The translations under genes and the position numbers were made by a program. A DNA stretch of 64,000 bases from Melioribacter roseus (lineage in GTDB: Bacteria; Bacteroidota; Ignavibacteria; Ignavibacteriales; Melioribacteraceae), in the NCBI GenBank assembly GCA_020722065.1, contig DYLK01000005.1, positions 1 through 64,000 of the forward strand, read 5' to 3'. Shown here one piece after another: positions 7,879-18,892 of the stretch. Below the pieces are notes generated by a model. The model was not told the DNA's origin and did no database searches. It worked only from the letters and a program-made list of their open reading frames with translations. Position 1 is the first letter of the stretch. Each line of letters starts with the position of its first letter.

Positions 7879-9411
7879 ATGGATTTTTTAAAGAAACTTG
7901 GAATTAAAGAGAAAAATTTTGGTGCTTCAACTGGTTTGAATTGGATTGAAAACACAAATGGTGGTGAACTAAATATTTATTCGCCAACAGATGGGAAATA
8001 CATCGCAAGTGTTTATCAAGCAACAGTTGAAGATTATGAAAAAGTGATAAAAATATCGGAAGAAGCTTTTAAATTCTGGCGAACTTTTCCAGCTCCAAAA
8101 CGCGGTGAAATTGTTCGCCAAATTGGTAATGTTTTACGCGAATACAAAGAACCACTTGGAACACTCGTTTCTTATGAAATGGGAAAATCACTTCAAGAAG
8201 GAATGGGAGAAGTTCAAGAAATGATTGATATTTGCGATTTTGCAGTTGGACAATCACGACAATTATACGGTTTTACAATGCAATCCGAAAGACCACGACA
8301 CAGAATGTATGACCAATATCATCCACTTGGAATTGTTGGAATAATTACAGCATTTAACTTTCCAGTTGCAGTTTGGGCTTGGAATGCAATGTTAGCAACT
8401 ATTGCTGGCGATACAAACTTGTGGAAACCTTCCTCAAAAGTTCCACTTTCAGCCATTGCAGTTCAAAATATTATTGCTCCAGTAATCAAAAATAATAATC
8501 TTCCCGAAGGATTATTCTCCTTGATTATCGGAAAAGGTTCGTCAGTTGGCGAAAAAATGCTAAATGACAAAAAAGTACCTTTAATCTCAATTACTGGTTC
8601 AATTGATATTGGAAGACACGCAGCAATTCAAATTGCAAAACGTTTTGGGAAATATATTCTTGAACTTGGCGGAAATAATGCAATTATTTTAACCCCAGAA
8701 GCTGATTTGAAAATGGCAATTCCATCAACAGTTTTTGGTGCAGTTGGAACAGCTGGACAAAGATGTACTTCGACAAGAAGATTGATTGTTCACGAATCAA
8801 TTTATGATAAAGTAAAAAATACACTCGTTGATGCTTACGGAAAATTAAGAATTGGCGATCCGTTGAATATAGAAAATCACGTTGGACCGCTCATTGACAA
8901 ATCAGCAGTTGCATTATTCAAAGATGCACTAAATCGACTTGAAAAAGAAGGTGGCAAAGTTCTTTTCGGTGGAAAAGTTTTAGAAGGGAAAGGTTACGAA
9001 TCTGGATGTTATGTAGTCCCAGCAATTTGTGAAGCTGAAAATCATTTCAAAGTTGTGCAAGAAGAAACTTTTGCTCCAATTTTATATTTAATAAAATATT
9101 CTGGTGATGTTCATAATGCAATAGAATTACAAAATGGAGTAGTTCAAGGATTATCTTCTGGAATATTTACAAACAATATGCGTGAAGCTGAATTATTCCT
9201 TTCGGCTGAAGGTTCAGATTGCGGAATTGCAAACGTGAATATTGGTACTTCTGGAGCAGAAATTGGCGGAGCATTCGGTGGTGAAAAAGAAACAGGTGGC
9301 GGAAGAGAATCTGGTTCAGATGCTTGGAAAGCATATATGCGTCGTCAGACAAATACAATAAATTATGGAACAACTTTACCTCTTGCACAAGGTATTAAGT
9401 TCGATATATAA
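7879..9411 (+). CDS. ALDH7-family aldehyde dehydrogenase (aminoadipate-semialdehyde dehydrogenase)
   Basis: A 510-residue aldehyde dehydrogenase of the antiquitin/ALDH7 type. It shows the coenzyme and active-site blocks 'GIVGIITAFNFPVAVWAWNAM', 'WKPSSKVPLSA', 'ISITGSIDIGR', the general-base Glu in 'LELGGNNAI', and the nucleophilic Cys in 'GTAGQRCTSTRRL'; the 'GCGIANVNIGTSGAEIGGAFGGEKETGGGRESGSDAWKAYMRRQTNTINY'-like tail (here SDCGIAN...) is characteristic of ALDH7. ALDH7 oxidises alpha-aminoadipate semialdehyde to aminoadipate in lysine breakdown, which fits the preceding LKR gene 10 nt upstream. A good GGAG ribosome-binding site precedes the ATG. A hairpin terminator follows. Confidence 0.88.
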   Translation: MDFLKKLGIKEKNFGASTGLNWIENTNGGELNIYSPTDGKYIASVYQATVEDYEKVIKISEEAFKFWRTFPAPKRGEIVRQIGNVLREYKEPLGTLVSYEMGKSLQEGMGEVQEMIDICDFAVGQSRQLYGFTMQSERPRHRMYDQYHPLGIVGIITAFNFPVAVWAWNAMLATIAGDTNLWKPSSKVPLSAIAVQNIIAPVIKNNNLPEGLFSLIIGKGSSVGEKMLNDKKVPLISITGSIDIGRHAAIQIAKRFGKYILELGGNNAIILTPEADLKMAIPSTVFGAVGTAGQRCTSTRRLIVHESIYDKVKNTLVDAYGKLRIGDPLNIENHVGPLIDKSAVALFKDALNRLEKEGGKVLFGGKVLEGKGYESGCYVVPAICEAENHFKVVQEETFAPILYLIKYSGDVHNAIELQNGVVQGLSSGIFTNNMREAELFLSAEGSDCGIANVNIGTSGAEIGGAFGGEKETGGGRESGSDAWKAYMRRQTNTINYGTTLPLAQGIKFDI

Positions 9412-9422
9412 CATTAAATTAA

Positions 9423-9446
9423 AAGGTGAAGGTTAAACTTCACCTT
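9423..9446 (+). terminator. Hairpin terminator after the ALDH7 gene
   Basis: Perfect 9-bp stem AAGGTGAAG / CTTCACCTT with a 6-nt loop, followed by ATTCTTT. It lies 11 nt after the aldehyde dehydrogenase stop codon and just before the ribosome-binding site (AGGTGG) of the next gene, so read-through or an attenuator role is also conceivable. Confidence 0.62.
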
Positions 9447-9462
9447 ATTCTTTAGGTGGAAA

Positions 9463-10257
9463 ATGATATCAAAAATTAATGGACTTACAGTATATTTAAA
9501 TGGGAATGAAAATAATCAACCAATTATTTTTGTTCACGCATTTCCTCACGATAATAGAATGTGGAGGGAACAAGTTGAATTCTTTTCGAAGAATTATTTT
9601 GTAATTACTTATGATATTCGTGGCTTTGGCGAAAGTTGGCAAATAAATGGACAATTTACAATGGAAATGTTCGCAGATGATTTGCTTGCAATTGTAAACA
9701 AATTAGATATTAAAAATCCAATTGTTGCGGGACTTTCGATGGGCGGCTATATTATTTTACGTACTTTACAAAAGAATATGAATTTATTCACAGCAGTTGT
9801 CTTGTGCGACACACGTCCAGAAGCAGATGATAATGCTGGAAAATTGAAACGTTCCAATGCAATTTATGATATTCAGAATAATGGAGTTGAAAGGTTTTCA
9901 GAAGAATTTGTAAAAAATTGCTTATGGGAAGAAAATATCAAAAACAATGAAGATTTGCTTAAAAATGCTGTCCAAATTGTAACTTCACAAAGTGAAATCG
10001 GCGTAAAAGGTGCGTTATTAGCTATGTTATCAAGATTGGATTTAACTGAATTTTTATCGGAAATAACAATTCCAACTTTGGTTTTATGTGGCGAACACGA
10101 CAAATTAACTCCAATTTCATTAATGGAAAAAATGGCTAACAAAATTCCAAATTCAAAATTTGTTGTAGTGCCAAATGCTGGACACATGTCGAATATGGAA
10201 AATCCAAACTTTGTTAATCAAACAATTTCATCATTTTTAGAAGAAAATCATTTATAA
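9463..10257 (+). CDS. Alpha/beta-fold hydrolase
   Basis: 264 residues with a complete catalytic set: nucleophile elbow 'GLSMGG' (Ser92), acid in 'LCGEHDKLTP' and base in 'NAGHMSNMENP'; 'HAFPHDNRMW' forms the oxyanion-hole strand. It belongs to the RsbQ/3-oxoadipate enol-lactonase-like group of small cytoplasmic hydrolases. The substrate cannot be named from sequence. An AGGTGG ribosome-binding site is present; the upstream hairpin separates it from the lysine-catabolic pair, although same-strand read-through could link them. An inverted repeat just downstream probably terminates it. Confidence 0.82.
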   Translation: MISKINGLTVYLNGNENNQPIIFVHAFPHDNRMWREQVEFFSKNYFVITYDIRGFGESWQINGQFTMEMFADDLLAIVNKLDIKNPIVAGLSMGGYIILRTLQKNMNLFTAVVLCDTRPEADDNAGKLKRSNAIYDIQNNGVERFSEEFVKNCLWEENIKNNEDLLKNAVQIVTSQSEIGVKGALLAMLSRLDLTEFLSEITIPTLVLCGEHDKLTPISLMEKMANKIPNSKFVVVPNAGHMSNMENPNFVNQTISSFLEENHL

Positions 10258-10323: not shown

Positions 10324-11952
10324 TCCAATATTTCTGTACAATTCGTCTTTTGAGGGAAAATCTGATAAATAATAAAATTTTGCAAGATGTTTGTGATTAA
10401 CTAGCCAATTCAGTAAGATTTTTATTCTTTCTAAATCTTCATTAGTCAAATTAGATTCAATTTGGGAATCACCATCATAAAATGAACTGAGTGTTTCATC
10501 AATACTATTTTTTTTGAAATTTAAGAAATCATTAATGTACATTTTCCCATTTATCAGAAGAATTACATCATTTCCATTATAACCTTGAATGTCGATTAGA
10601 ACTTTAGCTTTGTTAATTGGTTCTTTTAATATTGCAATTTTTAGTAGTTGTTTTAGTATTTTCTGAATTGTATCTCGATATTGAGCCGCTTCTTCAAATT
10701 TCATCTGTTTAGAGAATTTTTGCATTTTTTCAAGTAGATTTTTGATTGCAGTTTGATTATTTCCAGATAAGAATTCGTGAACTCGCATAATTTCATTTTC
10801 ATACTGAATATTTACATCTAATTGGCACGGAGCTAAGCATCTTTTTATTTCGTGTAAATAGCAAATATGTTTTCGCTTAAATTCAGTTTCAGTGCATTCT
10901 CTTAGTTGAAAAGCTTTTTTTGCCACATCAAGAATATCAGCAGTTGTAAATCTATCAGAATACGGTCCAAAATAATCAGAACCATCAAATGAAAATTTTA
11001 ATGTAGATTTTAGATTTGGGAAAGCAACTGAATTATCTATTTTGATAAAATATGCTTCTGTGAATTTCTTTAATAAGTAATTCATTTTAGGATTATGTTG
11101 CTTGATTAATTGTGCTTCGGCAATTAACGCAGTAAGTTCAGTATTGGTATGAAAAAATTCTAAGTTGAAAGATTTCCTTACAATTTCTTTTGCTTTTCTA
11201 CTTGCAGTTGGTAAAAAATAACTCGCTACTCTCTTTTTTATTGATTTTGCTTTGCCGATATAAATTATTTCTCCTTTGCGATCTTTGAAAAAGTAAACTC
11301 CAGGTTTTTCTTCCGCTTTCATAAAATCATCAAGAAGTGTTTTCTTTCCAATTTTAATTTTTGTTCGAGCAATCGGTAATTTCTCAAAGAGATGAAGATT
11401 TGCCAAATCGAGAATATTGAATTCTTCTTCAAGAATTTCAAGATATTTCAAAAAGATTTTTGCTGTAACAATTGCATCGTCTAAAGCTCGGTGTGTGTTA
11501 TTTTCTCTGATTTTGAAATGATTTCGTACTGAAGTTAAATTATAGCTTTTTAGTTGTGGAATTAATCGTTTTCCTAATTTAACCGTGCAAAGTGATAAGT
11601 TTTTTGGCTCGGGAAATTCAGCACGTTGGAATTCCATTTTAAGAAATGATAAATCAAAAGTTGAATTGTGTGCTATAATTGGGGAATTTCCGATAAAACT
11701 CGCTACTTCGTTAATAATTTCATTGAAAATAGGCGATTTATTTACAGTGGAATTTGTAATTCCAGTTAGCAAAGTAATTTGATAAGGAATTTGTGATTCG
11801 GGATTAATTAATGTTGAGTATGTGTCTGTAATTTTACCATTTGAAATTTTCACTAAACCAATTTCAATTACTCGTGAATTTTTGACTGAAATTCCAGTCG
11901 TTTCAAAGTCGAGTATAGTAAATTCAATCTTTTTGAGTTCGTTTTCTATCAT
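10315..11952 (-). CDS. DEDDh exonuclease fused to a UvrC-like GIY-YIG nuclease
   Basis: 545 residues from the preferred ATG (ATG at 11955 is equally possible; an upstream ATG at 11988 adds a Leu-rich stretch unlike the family). Residues about 8-175 are a DnaQ/epsilon-like 3'-5' exonuclease: Exo I 'ILDFETTG' (D15, E17), Exo II 'HNSTFDLSFL', Exo III 'HRALDDAIVTAKIF'. From about 215 comes a GIY-YIG endonuclease domain 'KPGVYFFKDRKGEIIYIGKAKSIKKRVASYF' and a UvrC-like Cys-containing and UVR-type middle ('CYLHEIKRCLAPC', 'FEEAAQYRDTI'). This two-nuclease arrangement is known in actinobacteria and Bacteroidota and suggests DNA repair, but it is not UvrC itself. It is divergent from the hybrid kinase. 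Confidence 0.85.
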   Translation of the reverse strand: MIENELKKIEFTILDFETTGISVKNSRVIEIGLVKISNGKITDTYSTLINPESQIPYQITLLTGITNSTVNKSPIFNEIINEVASFIGNSPIIAHNSTFDLSFLKMEFQRAEFPEPKNLSLCTVKLGKRLIPQLKSYNLTSVRNHFKIRENNTHRALDDAIVTAKIFLKYLEILEEEFNILDLANLHLFEKLPIARTKIKIGKKTLLDDFMKAEEKPGVYFFKDRKGEIIYIGKAKSIKKRVASYFLPTASRKAKEIVRKSFNLEFFHTNTELTALIAEAQLIKQHNPKMNYLLKKFTEAYFIKIDNSVAFPNLKSTLKFSFDGSDYFGPYSDRFTTADILDVAKKAFQLRECTETEFKRKHICYLHEIKRCLAPCQLDVNIQYENEIMRVHEFLSGNNQTAIKNLLEKMQKFSKQMKFEEAAQYRDTIQKILKQLLKIAILKEPINKAKVLIDIQGYNGNDVILLINGKMYINDFLNFKKNSIDETLSSFYDGDSQIESNLTNEDLERIKILLNWLVNHKHLAKFYYLSDFPSKDELYRNIGNW

Positions 11953-12038: not shown

Positions 12039-14522
12039 ATGAAAACTGAAAACAGACTAAATATCGAAAAAAACAAAGAATTAATGATTTCGCCACTCAG
12101 AGCAATTGCATTTTTTACATCAATAGCGGGCATAATTGCGTTATTCTTCGAAATGTACTTTTTCAAACAATTCTCAATACAAATTTATTTTGGAAGAATT
12201 ATTGCCTCTATTGTTGGATTTTTAGTTTTAATGCTTTCTTATGGAAAATTTGGGAAAAGACACCCGTATTTTCTTGTCCATTTTTTACTATTAATCATAA
12301 TTTTATCATTTGCTTCAATAATTATTTTCATTCCAAAAACGCTCTTTGTAAATGCTCAATTAATGGCTTTAGTAATCTTTTTGGCTTCACTTTTTCTAAG
12401 TTGGGAAATAAAACACCAAATCGTACTTTCGATATATTATAACATTGTATTTGCAACATCAATCTTGTTAAATGAAAAATCTATTTACTTTTTGCCGAAT
12501 ATGTATGCTTTGGTGATTTTTGTGATTTCGATTAGTTTATTAGGAATTGTAGTAAGTGCCGTAAATTATAAGCTAAAAAAGCATGTTGAAATAACTGAGA
12601 ACAAGTTGCAAATAAGTGAAGAAAGATTCAAAAATCTGTTCGATTCGGCTGCTTTTGGAATATTTCAATTCGATACAAATGGCGAATTGCATAATTTCAA
12701 CACAAAATTTATGAAGATTCTGAAATATGAATCAGAAAAGGAATTACTTGAAAAACGATTGCCTGATGATTTTTTCGATAATAAAAACGAATTCAACAAT
12801 CTATTAGAATTACTGAAGAAAAAAGATGAAATAAATGATTATCGTGTATTGATGAAAGGAAATTCCGACACAAAAACGTGGGTAAAACTAAATCTAAAAA
12901 AAGTAGTCTCGGAAGATGGAAATATTCGATTTTTCAATTCATCTGTGCAAGATATTTCAGAACAAGTTTTGGCTGAATTTGAACATCAAAAAATGATTGA
13001 CGCACTACAAATGGCAAAAGCTGAAAGTGATAATAATATGAAGAAAATTCTAAAATATTCGCAAAGTCGAGCAAAATTTTTAGCAAAAATCAATCACGAA
13101 ATCCGAACTCCAGTAAACACAATATCAGGTTATTTAGCGTTAATTGAAGAAGGAATTTACGAGAATGAAAATGACTTGCGAAAATTAGCAAAAGAAGCAA
13201 AATTGGCATCAGATTCACTTTTGGAAATAATAAATCACAACCTTGATATTTACAATATCGAAAACAGAAAATTACTTTTGGATAAAAATGAGTTTTTCTT
13301 CAAAGAAGAAATCGAAAAAGCAATTTCATTAATAAAACCGTTAACCAGAAAAGATGTACAATTAATTTATTCAATAGATGAAAGAATTCCTGAAAAATTA
13401 ATTGGTGATGAAACTCGTTTTCGTCAGATTTTGATTAATTTATTGCAGAATTCATCAAAATTCACAGAACATGGAAAAATCAGACTTGCGGCAAAATTGG
13501 AAAACTTACGAAGTGATTCAGTTGTAATTTCATTTCGTGTAACTGACACGGGAAAGGGAATCCCAGCCGACAAATTGACGGGAATATTTAATAAAGATTT
13601 TCAAATTGATGAAAATGATATTAAAAACAAAGGAACTGGATTAGGTTTGCAAATTTGTAAAGAAATAATTGAAATGATGAAAGGGAAAATTGAAATACAA
13701 AGTATCGAAGGAAAAGGAACAGTTGTTGATTTTTTGATTCAATTTGCGATTCCAGAAAAAATTGATAAAAAAGAAGTTCGAGAAAATGAGGAAAAAACAA
13801 ATCGAATTGATACAGAAGATGAAATTTTACTTAAAGCTCAGAAAATTTTAGAACTTAGAAAATCATTTGAACAAAAAAAGGCATTACAAAGTAATTCTGA
13901 ATTAAAAGAAGAAGAAATTCGAAGTGAAAAAGTAATTGTGGGAGAAGAAAACTTTGTAAAAAATGATGTTGTGCAAAATCGGAAAACAGAAGAAATAATA
14001 GCAAAACAGTCTAAAAATGAACAATTTTTGCAAGAAGAAGAACGAAAAGAGATCGGAGAAATTTCGAATTCTGAATCAACTGATGAAAAATCTGAAGAAA
14101 TAAATTCACCCAATCAATCAAAGAATGAATTTGTCGTAAAAGAAGGTCAAAAAGCAATTCTACTTGTCGAAGATAATCTTGCTAATCAGAAAATGGAAAC
14201 AACAGTCCTTTCTGAATTAGGATATTCAGTTTTGCCCGTTTCAAACGGATTTGAAGCAATTGAAGAATTTAAGCATCGAAAATTCGATTTAATTTTAATG
14301 GACATTGTAATGCCAGAAATGGATGGCGTTGAAACAGCAAAAAGAATTAGAGAAATTAGCGATTGGGGTTCGAAAATTCCTATAATTGCAGTTACTGCAC
14401 ACGCATCAGTAAAAGATAGAGAGCGATGTATTCAGAATGGAATGAATGATTACATCTCAAAACCAATTAAAATTCAATTTCTAAAAATGATTATTGATGA
14501 ATGGCTTTTCCGTTGGAAGTAA
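12039..14522 (+). CDS. Hybrid sensor histidine kinase/response regulator
   Basis: 827 residues in this order: six predicted membrane helices (about 18-178), a PAS domain (about 192-315, 'RFKNLFDSAAFGIFQFD'), a HisKA dimerisation domain with phospho-accepting His353 in 'NHEIRTP', an HATPase domain ('INLLQNSSKFTE', 'DTGKGIP', 'GTGLGLQI'), a long Lys/Glu-rich linker (about 580-700), and a receiver domain with Asp755 in 'LILMDIVMPEMDG' and the usual T/K pair ('AVTAHAS', 'SKPI'). No DNA-binding output domain or separate regulator lies beside it, so the phosphorelay probably ends at a distant phosphotransfer protein. The signal is unknown. Confidence 0.9.
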   Translation: MKTENRLNIEKNKELMISPLRAIAFFTSIAGIIALFFEMYFFKQFSIQIYFGRIIASIVGFLVLMLSYGKFGKRHPYFLVHFLLLIIILSFASIIIFIPKTLFVNAQLMALVIFLASLFLSWEIKHQIVLSIYYNIVFATSILLNEKSIYFLPNMYALVIFVISISLLGIVVSAVNYKLKKHVEITENKLQISEERFKNLFDSAAFGIFQFDTNGELHNFNTKFMKILKYESEKELLEKRLPDDFFDNKNEFNNLLELLKKKDEINDYRVLMKGNSDTKTWVKLNLKKVVSEDGNIRFFNSSVQDISEQVLAEFEHQKMIDALQMAKAESDNNMKKILKYSQSRAKFLAKINHEIRTPVNTISGYLALIEEGIYENENDLRKLAKEAKLASDSLLEIINHNLDIYNIENRKLLLDKNEFFFKEEIEKAISLIKPLTRKDVQLIYSIDERIPEKLIGDETRFRQILINLLQNSSKFTEHGKIRLAAKLENLRSDSVVISFRVTDTGKGIPADKLTGIFNKDFQIDENDIKNKGTGLGLQICKEIIEMMKGKIEIQSIEGKGTVVDFLIQFAIPEKIDKKEVRENEEKTNRIDTEDEILLKAQKILELRKSFEQKKALQSNSELKEEEIRSEKVIVGEENFVKNDVVQNRKTEEIIAKQSKNEQFLQEEERKEIGEISNSESTDEKSEEINSPNQSKNEFVVKEGQKAILLVEDNLANQKMETTVLSELGYSVLPVSNGFEAIEEFKHRKFDLILMDIVMPEMDGVETAKRIREISDWGSKIPIIAVTAHASVKDRERCIQNGMNDYISKPIKIQFLKMIIDEWLFRWK

Positions 14523-14830: not shown

Positions 14831-16402
14831 ATGAGAAATTCATTTCTAACGGTTGTGATTTTTGCTGTTGTTGTCTCGGCAACATATTTCTACTTAAAAT
14901 CACCAGATATCGTTCAAACAAAATTAGAAGTTCTTAAAGAAAATTATTCAAAAACACGAGACAAAAAACCTGTAGATCACTCAAAATTTGAGGTTTTACA
15001 GAAACAATTCAGTTCTCCTCAAGAAGTTGTGAAAACTTGTATGAGTTGCCACAACGAAGTTCACAAGGAATTGTTAGATTCGCCACACTTCAGATGGCAA
15101 AGACCAGTTTATGAAAACGGACGTGGAGTAACTTATCTTGGGAAAGCCAATGCAATTAATAATTTTTGTATTGGAGTTCAAGGAAGCGAAGTAAGTTGCA
15201 ATAAATGTCATGCAAGTTTTGGTGAAGATGAAGCAATGCTTGCAATGGACGGCAATGCTGAAAATATTGATTGTCTCGTTTGTCATGATAATTCAGCAAC
15301 ATATTTGAAAGGGAACAATATGAATGGTTATCCTGACAAATCTGTCGATTTATCATTAGTTGCAAAAAGTGTTGGAACTCCGACACGTGATAATTGTGGA
15401 GTTTGTCACTTTTTTGGTGGTGGTGGAAATAACGTAAAACACGGTGATTTGGAAAAAGCACAATTTCATACAACAAAGGAAATTGATGTTCACATGGCTG
15501 ATAATGGTGGAAATTTAATTTGTATTGATTGCCACACTACAGAAAATCACAACATCAAAGGAAGATTATTCACAATTGAATCAAGTAATACAAATAGAGT
15601 TAGTTGCACAGATTGCCATACTGAATTGCCTCACGAAAGTATGGTACTAAATGAACATACAGTTAAAGTTGCTTGTCAAACATGCCATATTCCTACATAC
15701 GCAAAAGTAAATTCTGTTAATACAGATTGGGATTGGTCAACTGCTGGTAAATTAGATAAAGATGGAAAACCATTTGAAGTAGAAGATTCACTTGGCGACC
15801 ATATTTATAAATCCATAAAAGGTACTTTCAAATATGCGAGAAACAAAAAGCCAGATTATATTTGGTTTAATGGCACAGCAGAGCATTACTTGCTTGGAGA
15901 TAAAATATCTGAAAAAGAAACACTTCTTGTAATGAATAAAATGAACGGGAGTTATAATGATGAATTTTCTCAGATAATTCCAGTAAATATTCATTATACA
16001 AAACAACCTTTTGACCCAGTAACAAGAATGCTAATTCAACCAAAGCTTGCAGCACTTAAAAAGGGTGAAGGTGCTTATTGGCAAGATTTTGATTGGATAA
16101 AAGCATCTGAAAAAGGAATGGAAGCAGCTGGATTACCATTTAGTGGTAAATTAGATTGGTTTAATACTGTTTCATATTGGCCTATAAATCACATGGTTGC
16201 GCCTAAAGAAAATTCTCTTCAATGCGTTGATTGTCATAATTCTGAAAATAGTCGTTTAGCAGGATTGAATGATTTTTATATGCCAGCAAGAGACAAATAT
16301 GAACTTGTTGATACACTTGGCAATTTAATGATTTTATTAACAATTGCTGGTGTGTTAGCACACGGTTCATTGCGTTTTTACTTTGCAAAAAAACAGAAAT
16401 AG
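14831..16402 (+). CDS. Octaheme c-type cytochrome, tetrathionate-reductase (OTR) family
   Basis: 523 residues from the ATG preceded by AAAGG. It has an N-terminal membrane anchor (about 5-22), eight CxxCH heme sites (Cys70, 123, 148, 189, 231, 259, 282 and 465) and a C-terminal membrane helix (about 495-518). Spacing, with seven hemes packed in the first 290 residues and one near the C-terminus, plus the block 'NCGVCHFFGGGGNNVKHGDL', fits the OTR-type octaheme cytochromes first described in Shewanella, which reduce tetrathionate and, in vitro, nitrite or hydroxylamine. It would face the periplasm. It leads an operon with cytochrome b and two YeeE/YedE proteins, which supports a sulfur-compound role. 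The physiological substrate and electron direction are not proven. Confidence 0.85.
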   Translation: MRNSFLTVVIFAVVVSATYFYLKSPDIVQTKLEVLKENYSKTRDKKPVDHSKFEVLQKQFSSPQEVVKTCMSCHNEVHKELLDSPHFRWQRPVYENGRGVTYLGKANAINNFCIGVQGSEVSCNKCHASFGEDEAMLAMDGNAENIDCLVCHDNSATYLKGNNMNGYPDKSVDLSLVAKSVGTPTRDNCGVCHFFGGGGNNVKHGDLEKAQFHTTKEIDVHMADNGGNLICIDCHTTENHNIKGRLFTIESSNTNRVSCTDCHTELPHESMVLNEHTVKVACQTCHIPTYAKVNSVNTDWDWSTAGKLDKDGKPFEVEDSLGDHIYKSIKGTFKYARNKKPDYIWFNGTAEHYLLGDKISEKETLLVMNKMNGSYNDEFSQIIPVNIHYTKQPFDPVTRMLIQPKLAALKKGEGAYWQDFDWIKASEKGMEAAGLPFSGKLDWFNTVSYWPINHMVAPKENSLQCVDCHNSENSRLAGLNDFYMPARDKYELVDTLGNLMILLTIAGVLAHGSLRFYFAKKQK

Positions 16403-16414
16403 AAGGAAATGAAA

Positions 16415-17056
16415 ATGAAAGAAGTTTTAATTTATAAAGGTTATGAAAGATTCTGGCATTGGTCACAAGCCGCTTTAATCATTTTTTTAGCTGTTACAGG
16501 ATTCGAAGTTCACGGCAGTTATACATTTTTTGGATATGAAAATGCGGTTGTTTATCATAGATATGCTGCTCTTGGATTAATTGTTTTAATTCTATTTACA
16601 GCATTTTGGCATTTTATTACTGGAGAATGGAAACAATACAAACCAACTCCGCAATTTGTTAAAGAACAAATTGAATATTATCTCTTAGGTATTTTCAAAA
16701 ATGCTCCACATCCAACAAAAAAAACTGTACTTAGCAAATTGAATCCATTGCAAAAACTAGCTTATTTTGGGTTAATGGTAGTCATTATTCCATTGTTAGT
16801 TATAACAGGAATTTTATATTTATTTTACAGAATGCCAAGTGCAGCAAATATGAATCCATTGAATTTGACAAATTTAGAACCAATAGCAATATTGCATACA
16901 ATTGGTGCTTATTTGCTAGTAATGTTCGTAATCGGACATCTTTATTTAATTACAACTGGTCATACTATTTTCACTAATCTTAAAGCAATGATTACTGGCT
17001 ACGAGGAAATAGAAGAAGACGATGACCATCATAAAAAAGAGGAGAAAAAGGTTTAG
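16415..17056 (+). CDS. Membrane cytochrome b (thiosulfate-reductase/b561 type)
   Basis: 213 residues from the second of two in-frame ATGs, which is better spaced (7 nt) from the AGAAGGAA ribosome-binding site than the ATG at 16409. Four membrane helices carry His residues suited to bind two b hemes: 'RFWHWSQ' in helix 1, 'VYHRYAALG' in helix 2, 'ILHTIGAYLL' and 'GHLYLITTGH' later. The C-terminus is a charged, Asp/His/Lys-rich tail. It lies 12 nt after the octaheme gene and would exchange electrons between the menaquinone pool and that cytochrome, as in NrfH- or PhsC-type partners. The assignment to the octaheme protein rests on gene order. Confidence 0.85.
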   Translation: MKEVLIYKGYERFWHWSQAALIIFLAVTGFEVHGSYTFFGYENAVVYHRYAALGLIVLILFTAFWHFITGEWKQYKPTPQFVKEQIEYYLLGIFKNAPHPTKKTVLSKLNPLQKLAYFGLMVVIIPLLVITGILYLFYRMPSAANMNPLNLTNLEPIAILHTIGAYLLVMFVIGHLYLITTGHTIFTNLKAMITGYEEIEEDDDHHKKEEKKV

Positions 17057-17058
17057 AA

Positions 17059-17577
17059 ATGGAAGAAAAAACAAAATATTCGAATCCATATTTGATGGGA
17101 TTTTTATTAGGACTTTTAATTGTCTTTACAATTTACTTAAATGGAAATGGAGTTGGTGCAAGTGGTGCTTTCAAAAATGTTGTAGTTGGCACTATGAACG
17201 GAATTGCTCCTGAAAGTTCATCTCAATTGCAATATATTAAAGAATTCAACGCAAGTCATACAGAATCACCTTGGAAAGGCTGGTTAGTATTCGAAGTAAT
17301 TGGCGTCGTAATTGGTGGATTTATTTCTGGTCTTGTTTCAAACAGACTTAAATTTAAGTTCGATAAAGGGAAAAATGTTACATCAAAAGTAAGACTAATT
17401 ACAGCCTTAATTGGTGGAATGCTTTTCGGAATTGGTTCACAATTTGGACGTGGTTGCACAAGCGGTGCTGGATTAGATGGAATGGCAGTATTTTCTGTTG
17501 CTGGCTTTCTTGTTACAATGATGATTTTCGGAACGGGTTTTGCACTTGCTCCGTTATTCAAAAAACTTTGGTTATAA
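17059..17577 (+). CDS. YeeE/YedE-family sulfur transporter, N-terminal-half type
   Basis: A 172-residue membrane protein with about four helices, matching one half of the YeeE/YedE (TsuA) thiosulfate-uptake family. The motif 'GSQFGRGCTSGAGLDGM' holds the conserved Cys (about residue 133) used to pass sulfur species through these channels. It begins 2 nt after the cytochrome b stop codon, so it is likely coupled to it. It probably works together with the next gene, which has the second half-type; full-length TsuA contains both halves in one chain. The transported species (thiosulfate, sulfide or another) is not determined. Confidence 0.85.
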   Translation: MEEKTKYSNPYLMGFLLGLLIVFTIYLNGNGVGASGAFKNVVVGTMNGIAPESSSQLQYIKEFNASHTESPWKGWLVFEVIGVVIGGFISGLVSNRLKFKFDKGKNVTSKVRLITALIGGMLFGIGSQFGRGCTSGAGLDGMAVFSVAGFLVTMMIFGTGFALAPLFKKLWL

Positions 17578-17598
17578 TTAAATTTTTGGAGATAAATT

Positions 17599-18792
17599 AT
17601 GGGACCTTTATTCCCTGAAGCAAATTTTAATTTAGTATTAGCACTGATTATTGGTTTCATTTTCGGTGTTTTACTTGAACAAGCTGGATTCTCATCAAAC
17701 AAAAAATTGGTTGGAATTTTCTACGGCTATGATTTTACAGTTTGGCGAGTATTTTTTACTGCTGCTATAACTGCAATGGTTGGAGTTCTTACTCTATCTC
17801 ATTTTAATTTATTAGATATTAATGCAATTTATATTAGTCCAATGTATTTGTGGTCAGTTATCGCTGGTGGCATAATCATGGGATTTGGTTTTATTGTTGG
17901 TGGTTATTGCCCTGGGACTAGTCTTTGTGCTGCCTCTATCGGTAAACTTGACGCTTGGGTTTTTGTACTTGGAGTTGCACTTGGTATATTTGTATTTATA
18001 TTAGGATACCCAATGGTTGAAGGAATTTATCTTGGTTCTTTTATGGGCACTCCTCAAATATTCGATTTGCTTAATATCTCAATGGGATTGTTCACGTTCA
18101 TTATTGTGATTTTTGCTTTCTTAAGTTATTGGGGTGTTGGAATTCTCGAACGTAAAAAAAACAAAGGTGAAAGCTACGAACTAACTTCAAAATCTGGATT
18201 TTTTAAGATATTTGCAGTCGCTGTAGTTGTTGCATTTCTATCTTTATTTATGGCACCACACAAACAAACTCTTTTAGCAGAATTTAATTCAGTAGATTTT
18301 GGCAAAGATGCGAATATTAATTTGATCTCTTCAGATGAAGTTGCAGTTAGATTATTAAAAAATGATAATTCTCTTCAATTTATTGATTTGCGATTACCAA
18401 ACGAATTTACCAAACTTGCTTTGCCTTATGCATTAAATGCTACTCCCGAAGATTTTTTCCTTCCACGAGTGTCAGATTTTATCAATCAAAAGCAAAAAAT
18501 AACAATTATTTATGGCAGCGATGAAAAATTAGCAAAAAAAGTAGCTGTTTTAGCAGAAAAGATTGGATATAATCCAAATAAAATATTGGTTTTAAAAGGC
18601 GGATTTGATGAATTTATGAAAGATATTATAAATTTTGAAATGCCAAAAGAACAACCAAATTCAAAAATTGTGCAAACTACATATTTATTCAGACATGAAT
18701 ACAATGGTAGAATTAAGGAAATTCTTGAAAATTCAAAACCAAAACAAATAGTTCTACCGAAATCAAAAAGAGCATTAGGCGGTTGCGGTTGA
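17599..18792 (+). CDS. YeeE/YedE-family sulfur transporter fused to a cysteine-less rhodanese-like domain
   Basis: 397 residues. Residues about 1-230 are membrane helices of the YeeE/YedE family with 'VGGYCPGTSLCAASIGKLDAW', whose Cys residues line the transport path in TsuA-type proteins. After a last helix (about 200-218) comes a rhodanese-like domain (about 235-345: 'LISSDEVAVRLL', 'FIDLRLPNEF', 'VLKGGFDEF'). The loop where active rhodaneses have the persulfide Cys reads 'TIIYGSDEKLAKK', so the catalytic Cys is absent; binding or a structural role is more likely than sulfur transfer. The chain ends 'LGGCG', whose Cys might substitute (speculation). It starts 21 nt after the half-transporter with a GGAG site, and a terminator follows. 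Confidence 0.85.
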   Translation: MGPLFPEANFNLVLALIIGFIFGVLLEQAGFSSNKKLVGIFYGYDFTVWRVFFTAAITAMVGVLTLSHFNLLDINAIYISPMYLWSVIAGGIIMGFGFIVGGYCPGTSLCAASIGKLDAWVFVLGVALGIFVFILGYPMVEGIYLGSFMGTPQIFDLLNISMGLFTFIIVIFAFLSYWGVGILERKKNKGESYELTSKSGFFKIFAVAVVVAFLSLFMAPHKQTLLAEFNSVDFGKDANINLISSDEVAVRLLKNDNSLQFIDLRLPNEFTKLALPYALNATPEDFFLPRVSDFINQKQKITIIYGSDEKLAKKVAVLAEKIGYNPNKILVLKGGFDEFMKDIINFEMPKEQPNSKIVQTTYLFRHEYNGRIKEILENSKPKQIVLPKSKRALGGCG

Positions 18793-18813
18793 TTAACAAA
18801 CTTTTATGTTAAC

Positions 18814-18843
18814 AAAAAAAGCTCGAGAAATCGGGCTTTTTTA
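18814..18843 (+). terminator. Intrinsic terminator of the octaheme/YeeE operon
   Basis: Hairpin AAAAAGCTCGA - GAAA - TCGGGCTTTTT with one G-U pair, a stable GAAA loop and a T-run. It lies about 20 nt after the last gene of the operon; being A- and T-flanked it could also act on the converging strand. Confidence 0.75.
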
Positions 18844-18892
18844 TTAAAAGAATGTTAAATCAGAAAATGTCAAATATTTTTGTCTAAACCCG

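Follow-up and report, generated by a model that had tools for sequence, protein, structure and literature searches.

The exported carrier SoxY (of SoxYZ) holds a cysteine on a C-terminal arm and ends GGCGG, and Sud of Wolinella (1qxn), the periplasmic rhodanese serving polysulfide reductase, offers a second comparison; Sud uses its loop cysteine. Here, these and other described systems are compared with a four-gene operon at positions 14831 to 18792 of the window, by which we mean the whole 64,000-nucleotide stretch of contig DYLK01000005.1 (Melioribacter roseus assembly GCA_020722065.1). In this operon, an octaheme cytochrome c of the OTR family and a cytochrome b are followed by two YeeE/YedE transporter halves, the second of which is fused to a rhodanese-like domain whose loop cysteine is replaced and whose C-terminal tail carries a conserved cysteine.

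The Shewanella OTR (1sp3; TIGR04315) has been placed with STC in a periplasmic network (PMC4484225), and the gene of a Beggiatoaceae OTR that reduces tetrathionate and nitrite precedes those for a thiosulfate-reductase cytochrome b and for Phs/Psr proteins (PMC6449678). Reductases of the PhsABC/PsrABC type are molybdopterin enzymes with NrfC/NrfD-like subunits. The half-type pair YedE1E2 imports zero-valent sulfur (PMC10812762), at the inner exit of YeeE a cysteine of YeeD has been proposed as the fourth in the relay (PMC11073785), and SoxT1A has been proposed to accept sulfur previously bound to SoxYZ (PMC11582611). SoxY-S3 adjoins otr in lucinid symbionts (PMC11237559), and rhodaneses were earlier suggested to take part in sulfur respiration (PMC5317093). 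Among the titles and abstract openings listed, with most subscription journals outside the coverage, we found no account of the present arrangement or of such a rhodanese C-terminal cysteine. All components come from known families; what seems to be new is that the cysteine has been relocated and is paired with OTR or PhsA-like reductases.

A rhodanese-like domain with a C-terminal cysteine tail

The genes and landmarks of the operon are as follows.

14831 to 16402, + strand: OTR-family octaheme cytochrome c (gene 1), 523 aa, with a hydrophobic segment at each end (TIGR04315, 1sp3, 8 CXXCH)
15437 to 15439, + strand: Lys203 of the VKHGD motif, aligned with residue 153 of the 1sp3 chain
16409 to 17056, + strand: b561-type cytochrome b (gene 2), likely quinol-oxidising partner (PF01292, conserved His)
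17059 to 17577, + strand: YeeE/YedE half, PmpA-like (gene 3; PF04143, C-terminal half of the Sulf_transp profile)
17599 to 18792, + strand: YeeE/YedE half, PmpB-like (gene 4), fused to a rhodanese-like domain, predicted to lie outside, with a C-terminal cysteine tail (PF04143, PF00581, structure model)
17908 to 17910, + strand: Cys104 of the PmpB-like half (63/63 fusions)
18331 to 18633, + strand: rhodanese-like domain, residues 245-345, with Gly in place of the catalytic loop cysteine (model, Foldseek, alignment)
18733 to 18789, + strand: C-terminal tail, residues 379-397, ending GGCG, proposed carrier arm (fusion ends, pLDDT)
18784 to 18786, + strand: Cys396, the conserved C-terminal cysteine (62/63 fusions)
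18815 to 18842, + strand: terminator-like hairpin (RNA folding)

Relatives were collected by scanning one genome per species across 84,980 species, which yielded 198 OTR relatives, the best 80 of which were kept; being the best of 198, these 80 loci lean to the window's type. To check on this bias, we sampled 296 genomes evenly across the phylum, some of which also supplied some of the 80 loci. The tail was counted in 63 full-length fusions, that is, the window and 62 loci, with the incomplete fusions of L007, L030 and L052 excluded.

Gene 4 matches the rhodanese family PF00581 with 35.3 bits (cut-off 22.2), and Foldseek matches to rhodaneses agree with a rhodanese fold. The catalytic loop position is Gly in the window, and the cysteine is swapped in 62 of the 63 fusions (Ala 34, Gly 23, Ser 4, Asp 1) and kept in one. 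At its C terminus the protein reads KRALGGCG, and the same 62/63 proportion of fusions end in GGC (44), GGCS (14), GGCG (3) or GGCA (1). The 23 intact fusions of the 296-genome sample all share this kind of ending, GGCT being an additional variant. The sole full-length fusion without the tail is that of L044, where a stop precedes it; since Gly-Cys can be read in the neighbouring frame past the stop (10700-10850, by eye), this may be a frameshift. Taking all 97 module rhodaneses together (64 clusters at 60% identity), 96 carry a cysteine in the last or last but one position. The loop cysteine was lost in 87 of the 91 non-lipoprotein members and is present in 4, and it is kept in all six lipoprotein members described below.

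Two controls led us to reject a chance origin of the tail. Ends of the form GGC or GGCx were found in 68 of 1086 open reading frames of at least 150 aa (L003-L082), and these 68 were 61 fusions, six lipoprotein rhodaneses and one split rhodanese. When 30 rhodaneses from 16 genomes were inspected, 24 had no terminal cysteine; five of the other six were gene 4 itself in members of the window's genus, and the sixth ended KKKKKEGC.

The structure model of gene 4 shows six long helices (moderate to low confidence), the rhodanese fold, a further helix and the tail. Block means of pLDDT were 86-95 over residues 241-350, the rhodanese part, and below 50 for residues 387-397. In the YeeE-fused type, the tail is mostly basic. 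Conserved cysteine, flexible C-terminal tail and a domain predicted to be exported together resemble the arm of SoxY. The window's domain differs from SoxY in its rhodanese fold and in having its cysteine last or last but one, and no SoxY family appeared among the matches up to an E value of 0.1. As in the case of Sud, exported rhodaneses of this kind stand beside Psr/Phs-type reductases, and 1qxn was matched weakly (E 0.0073 and 5.9e-5, not best hits); unlike Sud, the module rhodaneses have mostly lost the loop cysteine and keep the C-terminal one.

The rhodanese-like domain appears to lie outside the cytoplasm. This placement follows from the pattern of loop charges, as the mean number of Lys plus Arg per loop (58 sequences) was 1.98, 1.00 and 2.12 for the presumed inner loops and 0.09 and 0.86 for the presumed outer ones. 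It is also supported independently by rhodaneses that are encoded separately and begin with a membrane segment of their own (L151, L153, L154 and L020) and by a lipobox cysteine on the rhodanese in six loci. A model of the lipoprotein rhodanese (6 sequences) had a mean pLDDT of 61.8, a low confidence, and was given no weight.

The transporter halves have the layout of half-type YeeE pairs. Gene 3 matches PF04143 with 68.7 bits over profile positions 175-308 of 310 and gene 4 with 55.2 bits over positions 4-195 (cut-off 27 for both). As in PmpA/PmpB and YedE1E2, the halves thus match the C- and N-terminal Sulf_transp parts with one conserved cysteine each (half assignment, PMC11582611): Cys133 of gene 3, in RGCTSG, is conserved in at least 97% (n=66), and Cys104 of gene 4 in every fusion. 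What sets the window's PmpB-like half apart is the added helix, the putatively external rhodanese-like domain and the cysteine tail. Both genes fall below the TsuA model cut-off of 400 bits (40.8 and 17.8), and gene 4 matches the YedE selenium transporter model weakly (33.1 bits, cut-off 200).

The OTR scored 524.8 bits against TIGR04315 (cut-off 375) and aligned nearly full-length with 1sp3 (E 3.9e-107), with eight CXXCH heme motifs as in the Shewanella protein. Its Lys203 aligns with Lys153 of the 1sp3 chain, the ligand of the catalytic heme. The VKHGD motif was found in 101 of 104 OTRs; the exceptions were L009 (IKHGD), L095 (VKHAD) and L091 (none found), so KH is kept in two of the three. 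The window OTR differs from the Shewanella protein in its hydrophobic end segments, its own cytochrome b and its operon with PmpA/PmpB and rhodanese. The sequence-only reading had the OTR anchored at both ends; the hydrophobic stretches are there in the sequence, as putative anchors. Gene 2 matches PF01292 with 96.3 bits (cut-off 30.1), and its His17, 35, 50, 101, 163 and 177 are conserved in at least 97% (n=79). It lies below the thiosulfate reductase cytochrome b model NF011582 (107.8 vs 204 bits), and it is likely the quinol-oxidising partner of the OTR. A review table (PMC13188914) lists selenoprotein forms of the OTR family and of YeeE/YedE transporters.

Gene order among relatives and other partners of the tail

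OTR, cytochrome b, PmpA and PmpB followed one another on one strand with gaps below 500 bases in 65/65 fusion-bearing loci. From the sequence alone, the operon had been read as a distinct module coupling redox chemistry to sulfur transport, a view made to depend on gene order being conserved in relatives, and this part of it has held up, both here and in the reductase operons described below. The accompanying remark that OTR genes usually stand alone is contradicted in this set, with a cytochrome b in 78/80 loci and the contig of the other two stopping directly past the OTR; OTRs lacking a cytochrome b do exist elsewhere. PmpA- and PmpB-like genes were present in 65/80 loci, and the other 15 comprised four cut by contig ends (L032, L046, L071, L080), five with a cytochrome b-PAS fusion and six with a lipoprotein rhodanese. 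Many records with the fusion are named Bacteroidota or Ignavibacteria. Isolate names starting SulCav, which we take to mean sulfidic cave, occur in seven of the 80 loci.

In the 296-genome sample, 43 OTRs were over the cut-off, and all 23 intact fusions lay 1298-1699 bases downstream of the OTR match. Among the 20 OTRs without an intact fusion were one split fusion (G062, L155) and one variant without a cytochrome b, whose rhodanese ends GGLCS (G306, L163). A tree of 104 OTRs (8 CXXCH motifs in 99 and 7 in five, some of the latter cut at contig ends) placed all 67 OTRs associated with YeeE and rhodanese genes on one side of a branch with an SH-aLRT of 97. The window's OTR is among these 67, and the second copy of its genome falls outside. 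A search of viral contigs found no OTR, and a search of plasmids found five, four from Paracoccus and one from Photobacterium. The Photobacterium plasmid carries an OTR-cytochrome b pair without a tailed rhodanese, and the one Paracoccus plasmid OTR viewed has neither an adjoining cytochrome b nor a tailed rhodanese. With gene 4 as the query, plasmids gave two partial matches.

The five cytochrome b-PAS loci have, after the OTR, a long cytochrome b running into PAS domains (tested in L068 and seen by eye in L070, L072, L074 and L075). This suggests a redox-sensing form of the OTR-cytochrome b pair.

The tailed rhodanese also occurs with other enzymes. We examined 26 regions, of which L151-L154 were picked since their rhodanese match reached the profile end, a requirement that favours the tail, and L164, L168 and L202-L221 by matches to the PmpB half. 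In 19 of the 26 (L151, L153, L154, L164, L168, L202-L214 and L220) the order was PhsA-like, NrfC-like, NrfD-like, PmpA, PmpB and tailed rhodanese, the last fused to PmpB in L164. The OTR-cytochrome b pair is here exchanged for a PhsABC-like reductase in front of the same channel and rhodanese genes. The PhsA-like protein of L151 scored 464.7 bits against the PhsA model (cut-off 694) and is therefore called PhsA-like rather than a proven PhsA. The tails in these regions read KKKKKEGC, KREGC, RDGC or GGC. In L215 no tailed rhodanese was seen in the PhsA-like operon, and L152 is a short contig. L216-L219 and L221 lack PhsA but have PmpA-PmpB together with a rhodanese whose last residues read VRMGC, MRMGC or RFQC; in L219, PmpA is preceded by a gene with two rhodanese stretches (tested; L217 looks alike), and a class-V aminotransferase follows. 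Across these sets it is therefore the channel pair that stays with the rhodanese, while the sulfur enzyme changes.

In the six lipoprotein loci (L069, L076-L079 and L082) a tailed rhodanese follows the OTR-cytochrome b pair, and we saw no channel gene there. A cultured relative, Labilibacter sediminis CG51, has both a fusion operon (L081) and one of the lipoprotein type (L082). In L079 two additional rhodanese genes and a porin come after the tailed rhodanese, and clusters of tailed rhodaneses with further rhodaneses and a porin were noted in both L079 (10804-13774) and L154 (4600-7684). The L154 porin and the L079 tandem rhodanese resemble ExtI and ExtH of selenite/tellurite operons; both matches are weak and below cut-off. 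L154 also has a tandem pair of tailed rhodanese genes (8631-9924, minus strand), both ending KPEGGC.

Proposed mechanism and competing explanations

We propose, with middling confidence, that the operon encodes a sulfur module of the membrane that is driven by quinol, is centred on a SoxY-like carrier arm and includes a zero-valent-sulfur channel. The sulfur function is argued from context, and since the same PmpA-PmpB-rhodanese genes stand behind PhsA/PsrA-like operons, it does not rest on the name of the OTR alone. Sulfane sulfur (polysulfide, thiosulfate or polythionate) would be loaded outside on the C-terminal cysteine as a persulfide or S-thiosulfonate. The rhodanese-like domain, having given up its own loop cysteine, would present this cysteine on a flexible, mostly basic tail as SoxY does. 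The cytochrome b would take electrons from quinol and pass them to the octaheme OTR, whose Lys-ligated heme could reductively cleave the arm-bound sulfur and release sulfide. The arm could also deliver sulfur into the PmpA/PmpB channel, its cysteine forming an outer relay site ahead of the channel cysteines, comparable to that of YeeD at the inner exit. In this scheme the arm may serve either type of reductase, the OTR fed by cytochrome b or the PhsA-like enzyme. We infer that sulfur is held on the arm, that electrons flow in this direction, that the arm docks into the OTR and the channel, and what the substrate is, tetrathionate included. The surface of the Shewanella OTR is negative overall except near hemes II and VIII (PMC4484225), which fits a basic arm only in part.

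A wider reading is tentative and on the doubtful side: tailed rhodaneses would form a new class of extracytoplasmic sulfur carriers, in which the cysteine moved from the loop to a swinging arm in convergence with SoxY; carrier-bound rather than free sulfane sulfur would be the true substrate of octaheme cytochromes of the OTR type and of one branch of Phs/Psr-like reductases, and the carriers would feed PmpAB from outside. The arm may explain what the long-studied OTR family acts on. Purified OTR-type cytochromes reduce tetrathionate, nitrite and hydroxylamine; if the OTR acts on sulfur carried by its partner's cysteine arm, the question of its cellular substrate becomes testable by one point change, at Cys396, in a four-gene system. 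If true, half-type YeeE channels would also gain an outer donor matching the inner acceptor YeeD, and the domain would be an example of a sulfurtransferase turned SoxY-like carrier.

Several observations weigh against the proposed carrier module. The membrane part of the gene 4 model is of low confidence, and the stretch after the last helix, placed outside, averages 2.83 Lys plus Arg, contrary to a strict positive-inside rule. In the 296-genome sample, 18 of the 43 OTRs had no fusion, split or variant form; ten of these 18 neighbourhoods were read (L156-L162 and L165-L167, including the second pair of the window's genome), and none held a tailed rhodanese. The five loci with a cytochrome b-PAS fusion have no adjoining tailed rhodanese either. 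The fused and the lipoprotein tails may have separate origins, since the lipoprotein form keeps its loop cysteine and its tail is not basic. No acceptor of the TusA/YeeD type (PF01206) was found in the window's genome. From the literature, none of sulfur, thiosulfate and sulfite stimulated Melioribacter roseus (PMC3534657), and its Psr-like enzyme is presumed to reduce arsenate (PMC5492636); its MerR-psrABC layout matches that of L164, where a MerR domain and the tailed fusion are present, and genome G012 is probably of this species. Neither sulfur nor thiosulfate was respired by Caldithrix, which has an OTR and, close to two sulfurtransferases, a Psr/Phs operon (PMC5317091), and the cluster that holds the PmpAB genes of Hyphomicrobium was attributed by its authors to alcohol catabolism (PMC11582611). 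Nitrite and hydroxylamine are further substrates of OTRs (PMC4484225), with nitrite reduction reported in PMC6449678 as well.

The same genes could work in the opposite direction, with the OTR oxidising or conjugating sulfane sulfur held by the arm, electrons passing via cytochrome b to the quinone pool and the channel importing sulfur. SoxY-type arms serve oxidation, the otr-adjoining SoxY-S3 belongs to sulfur-oxidising symbionts (PMC11237559), and SoxYZ has been proposed as the source of sulfur for SoxT channels (PMC11582611). We consider this direction unlikely, as the module alternates with reductase-type operons in the 19 regions above and purified OTRs are known as reductases (PMC6449678, PMC4484225).

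The reduction of nitrite and hydroxylamine by known OTRs raises a second explanation, in which nitrite or hydroxylamine is what the OTR-cytochrome b pair reduces, and the YeeE-rhodanese genes, though on one transcript with it, meet a separate need for sulfur or protection. It would suit the window's genome, where no NrfA was over the cut-off (best 20.5 vs 24.1 bits), and the many OTR-cytochrome b pairs without a rhodanese. An unrelated need would nevertheless have to accommodate an order fixed in all fusion loci, an OTR clade tied to the fusion, a tailed rhodanese beside OTR without channel genes, and rhodanese-channel genes beside PhsA-like operons, and we regard this explanation as quite unlikely.

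A structural or regulatory role for the C-terminal cysteine, as a disulfide latch, a metal or heme ligand or a plug gating the channel, has in our estimate a slim chance. In the 63 fusions the tail sits on the channel half itself and so could reach the channel mouth, and with the loop cysteine lost, ordinary rhodanese chemistry is absent; however, the tail is also found on a stand-alone lipoprotein with no adjoining channel gene and beside PhsA-like enzymes, and tandem tailed rhodaneses exist (L154). That the module handles selenium, tellurium or arsenic oxyanions, with selenium rather than sulfur on the arm, would accord with the ExtI, ExtH and selenium transporter matches and with the presumed arsenate reduction by the M. 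roseus enzyme, but these profile matches are all far below their cut-offs and the half-type YeeE pairs examined to date are importers of zero-valent sulfur, leaving it little probability.

Transcription unit, host genome and further loci

The four genes are separated by gaps of 2 to 21 bases. The sequence-only reading had taken them as one unit of four genes closed by a terminator, and the positions, on the + strand, and the families were borne out (TIGR04315, PF01292 and PF04143 twice). RNA folding of 18795-18860 gave a strong hairpin of 12 pairs with a GAAA loop and a U run (-17.1 kcal/mol, z -5.36, equalled by 0/200 shuffles), though a simple terminator scan flagged nothing 3' of gene 4. 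The rhodanese named in that reading is present, as the C-terminal domain of gene 4 and not as a gene of its own. Overall, its interpretation was partly supported. Our results back the conserved module but lend no support to tetrathionate as the substrate or to a reduction whose product is then taken up. The reading missed the relocated C-terminal cysteine, the extracytoplasmic side to which we assign the domain and the version without YeeE in six loci. Upstream, 308 bases separate the OTR start from the end, at 14522, of a gene encoding PAS, histidine kinase and receiver domains; we found no tie between this gene and the operon.

The window's genome (2.38 Mb, rated 100% complete) has the operon's two YeeE halves as its sole Sulf_transp matches and the gene 4 domain as its sole rhodanese at E 1e-6 or better. 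A molybdopterin oxidoreductase (PF00384) was not found in it, which we count in favour of the carrier module and which also separates this genome from the PhsABC/PsrABC type. Its second OTR-cytochrome b pair (L002/L165, G000:C8:33626-35152), whose OTR is 50% identical to that of the operon, has no YeeE or rhodanese gene seen beside it.

Two further loci carry short OTRs without a cytochrome b (L159, 6977-8359; L160, 9117-10496), which by eye lie amid MRP/ParA-type ATPase-like genes and accompanying small proteins. Upstream of the OTR operon in L155 (1-6711), repeats readable as FNSTLVQLD resemble a CRISPR array.

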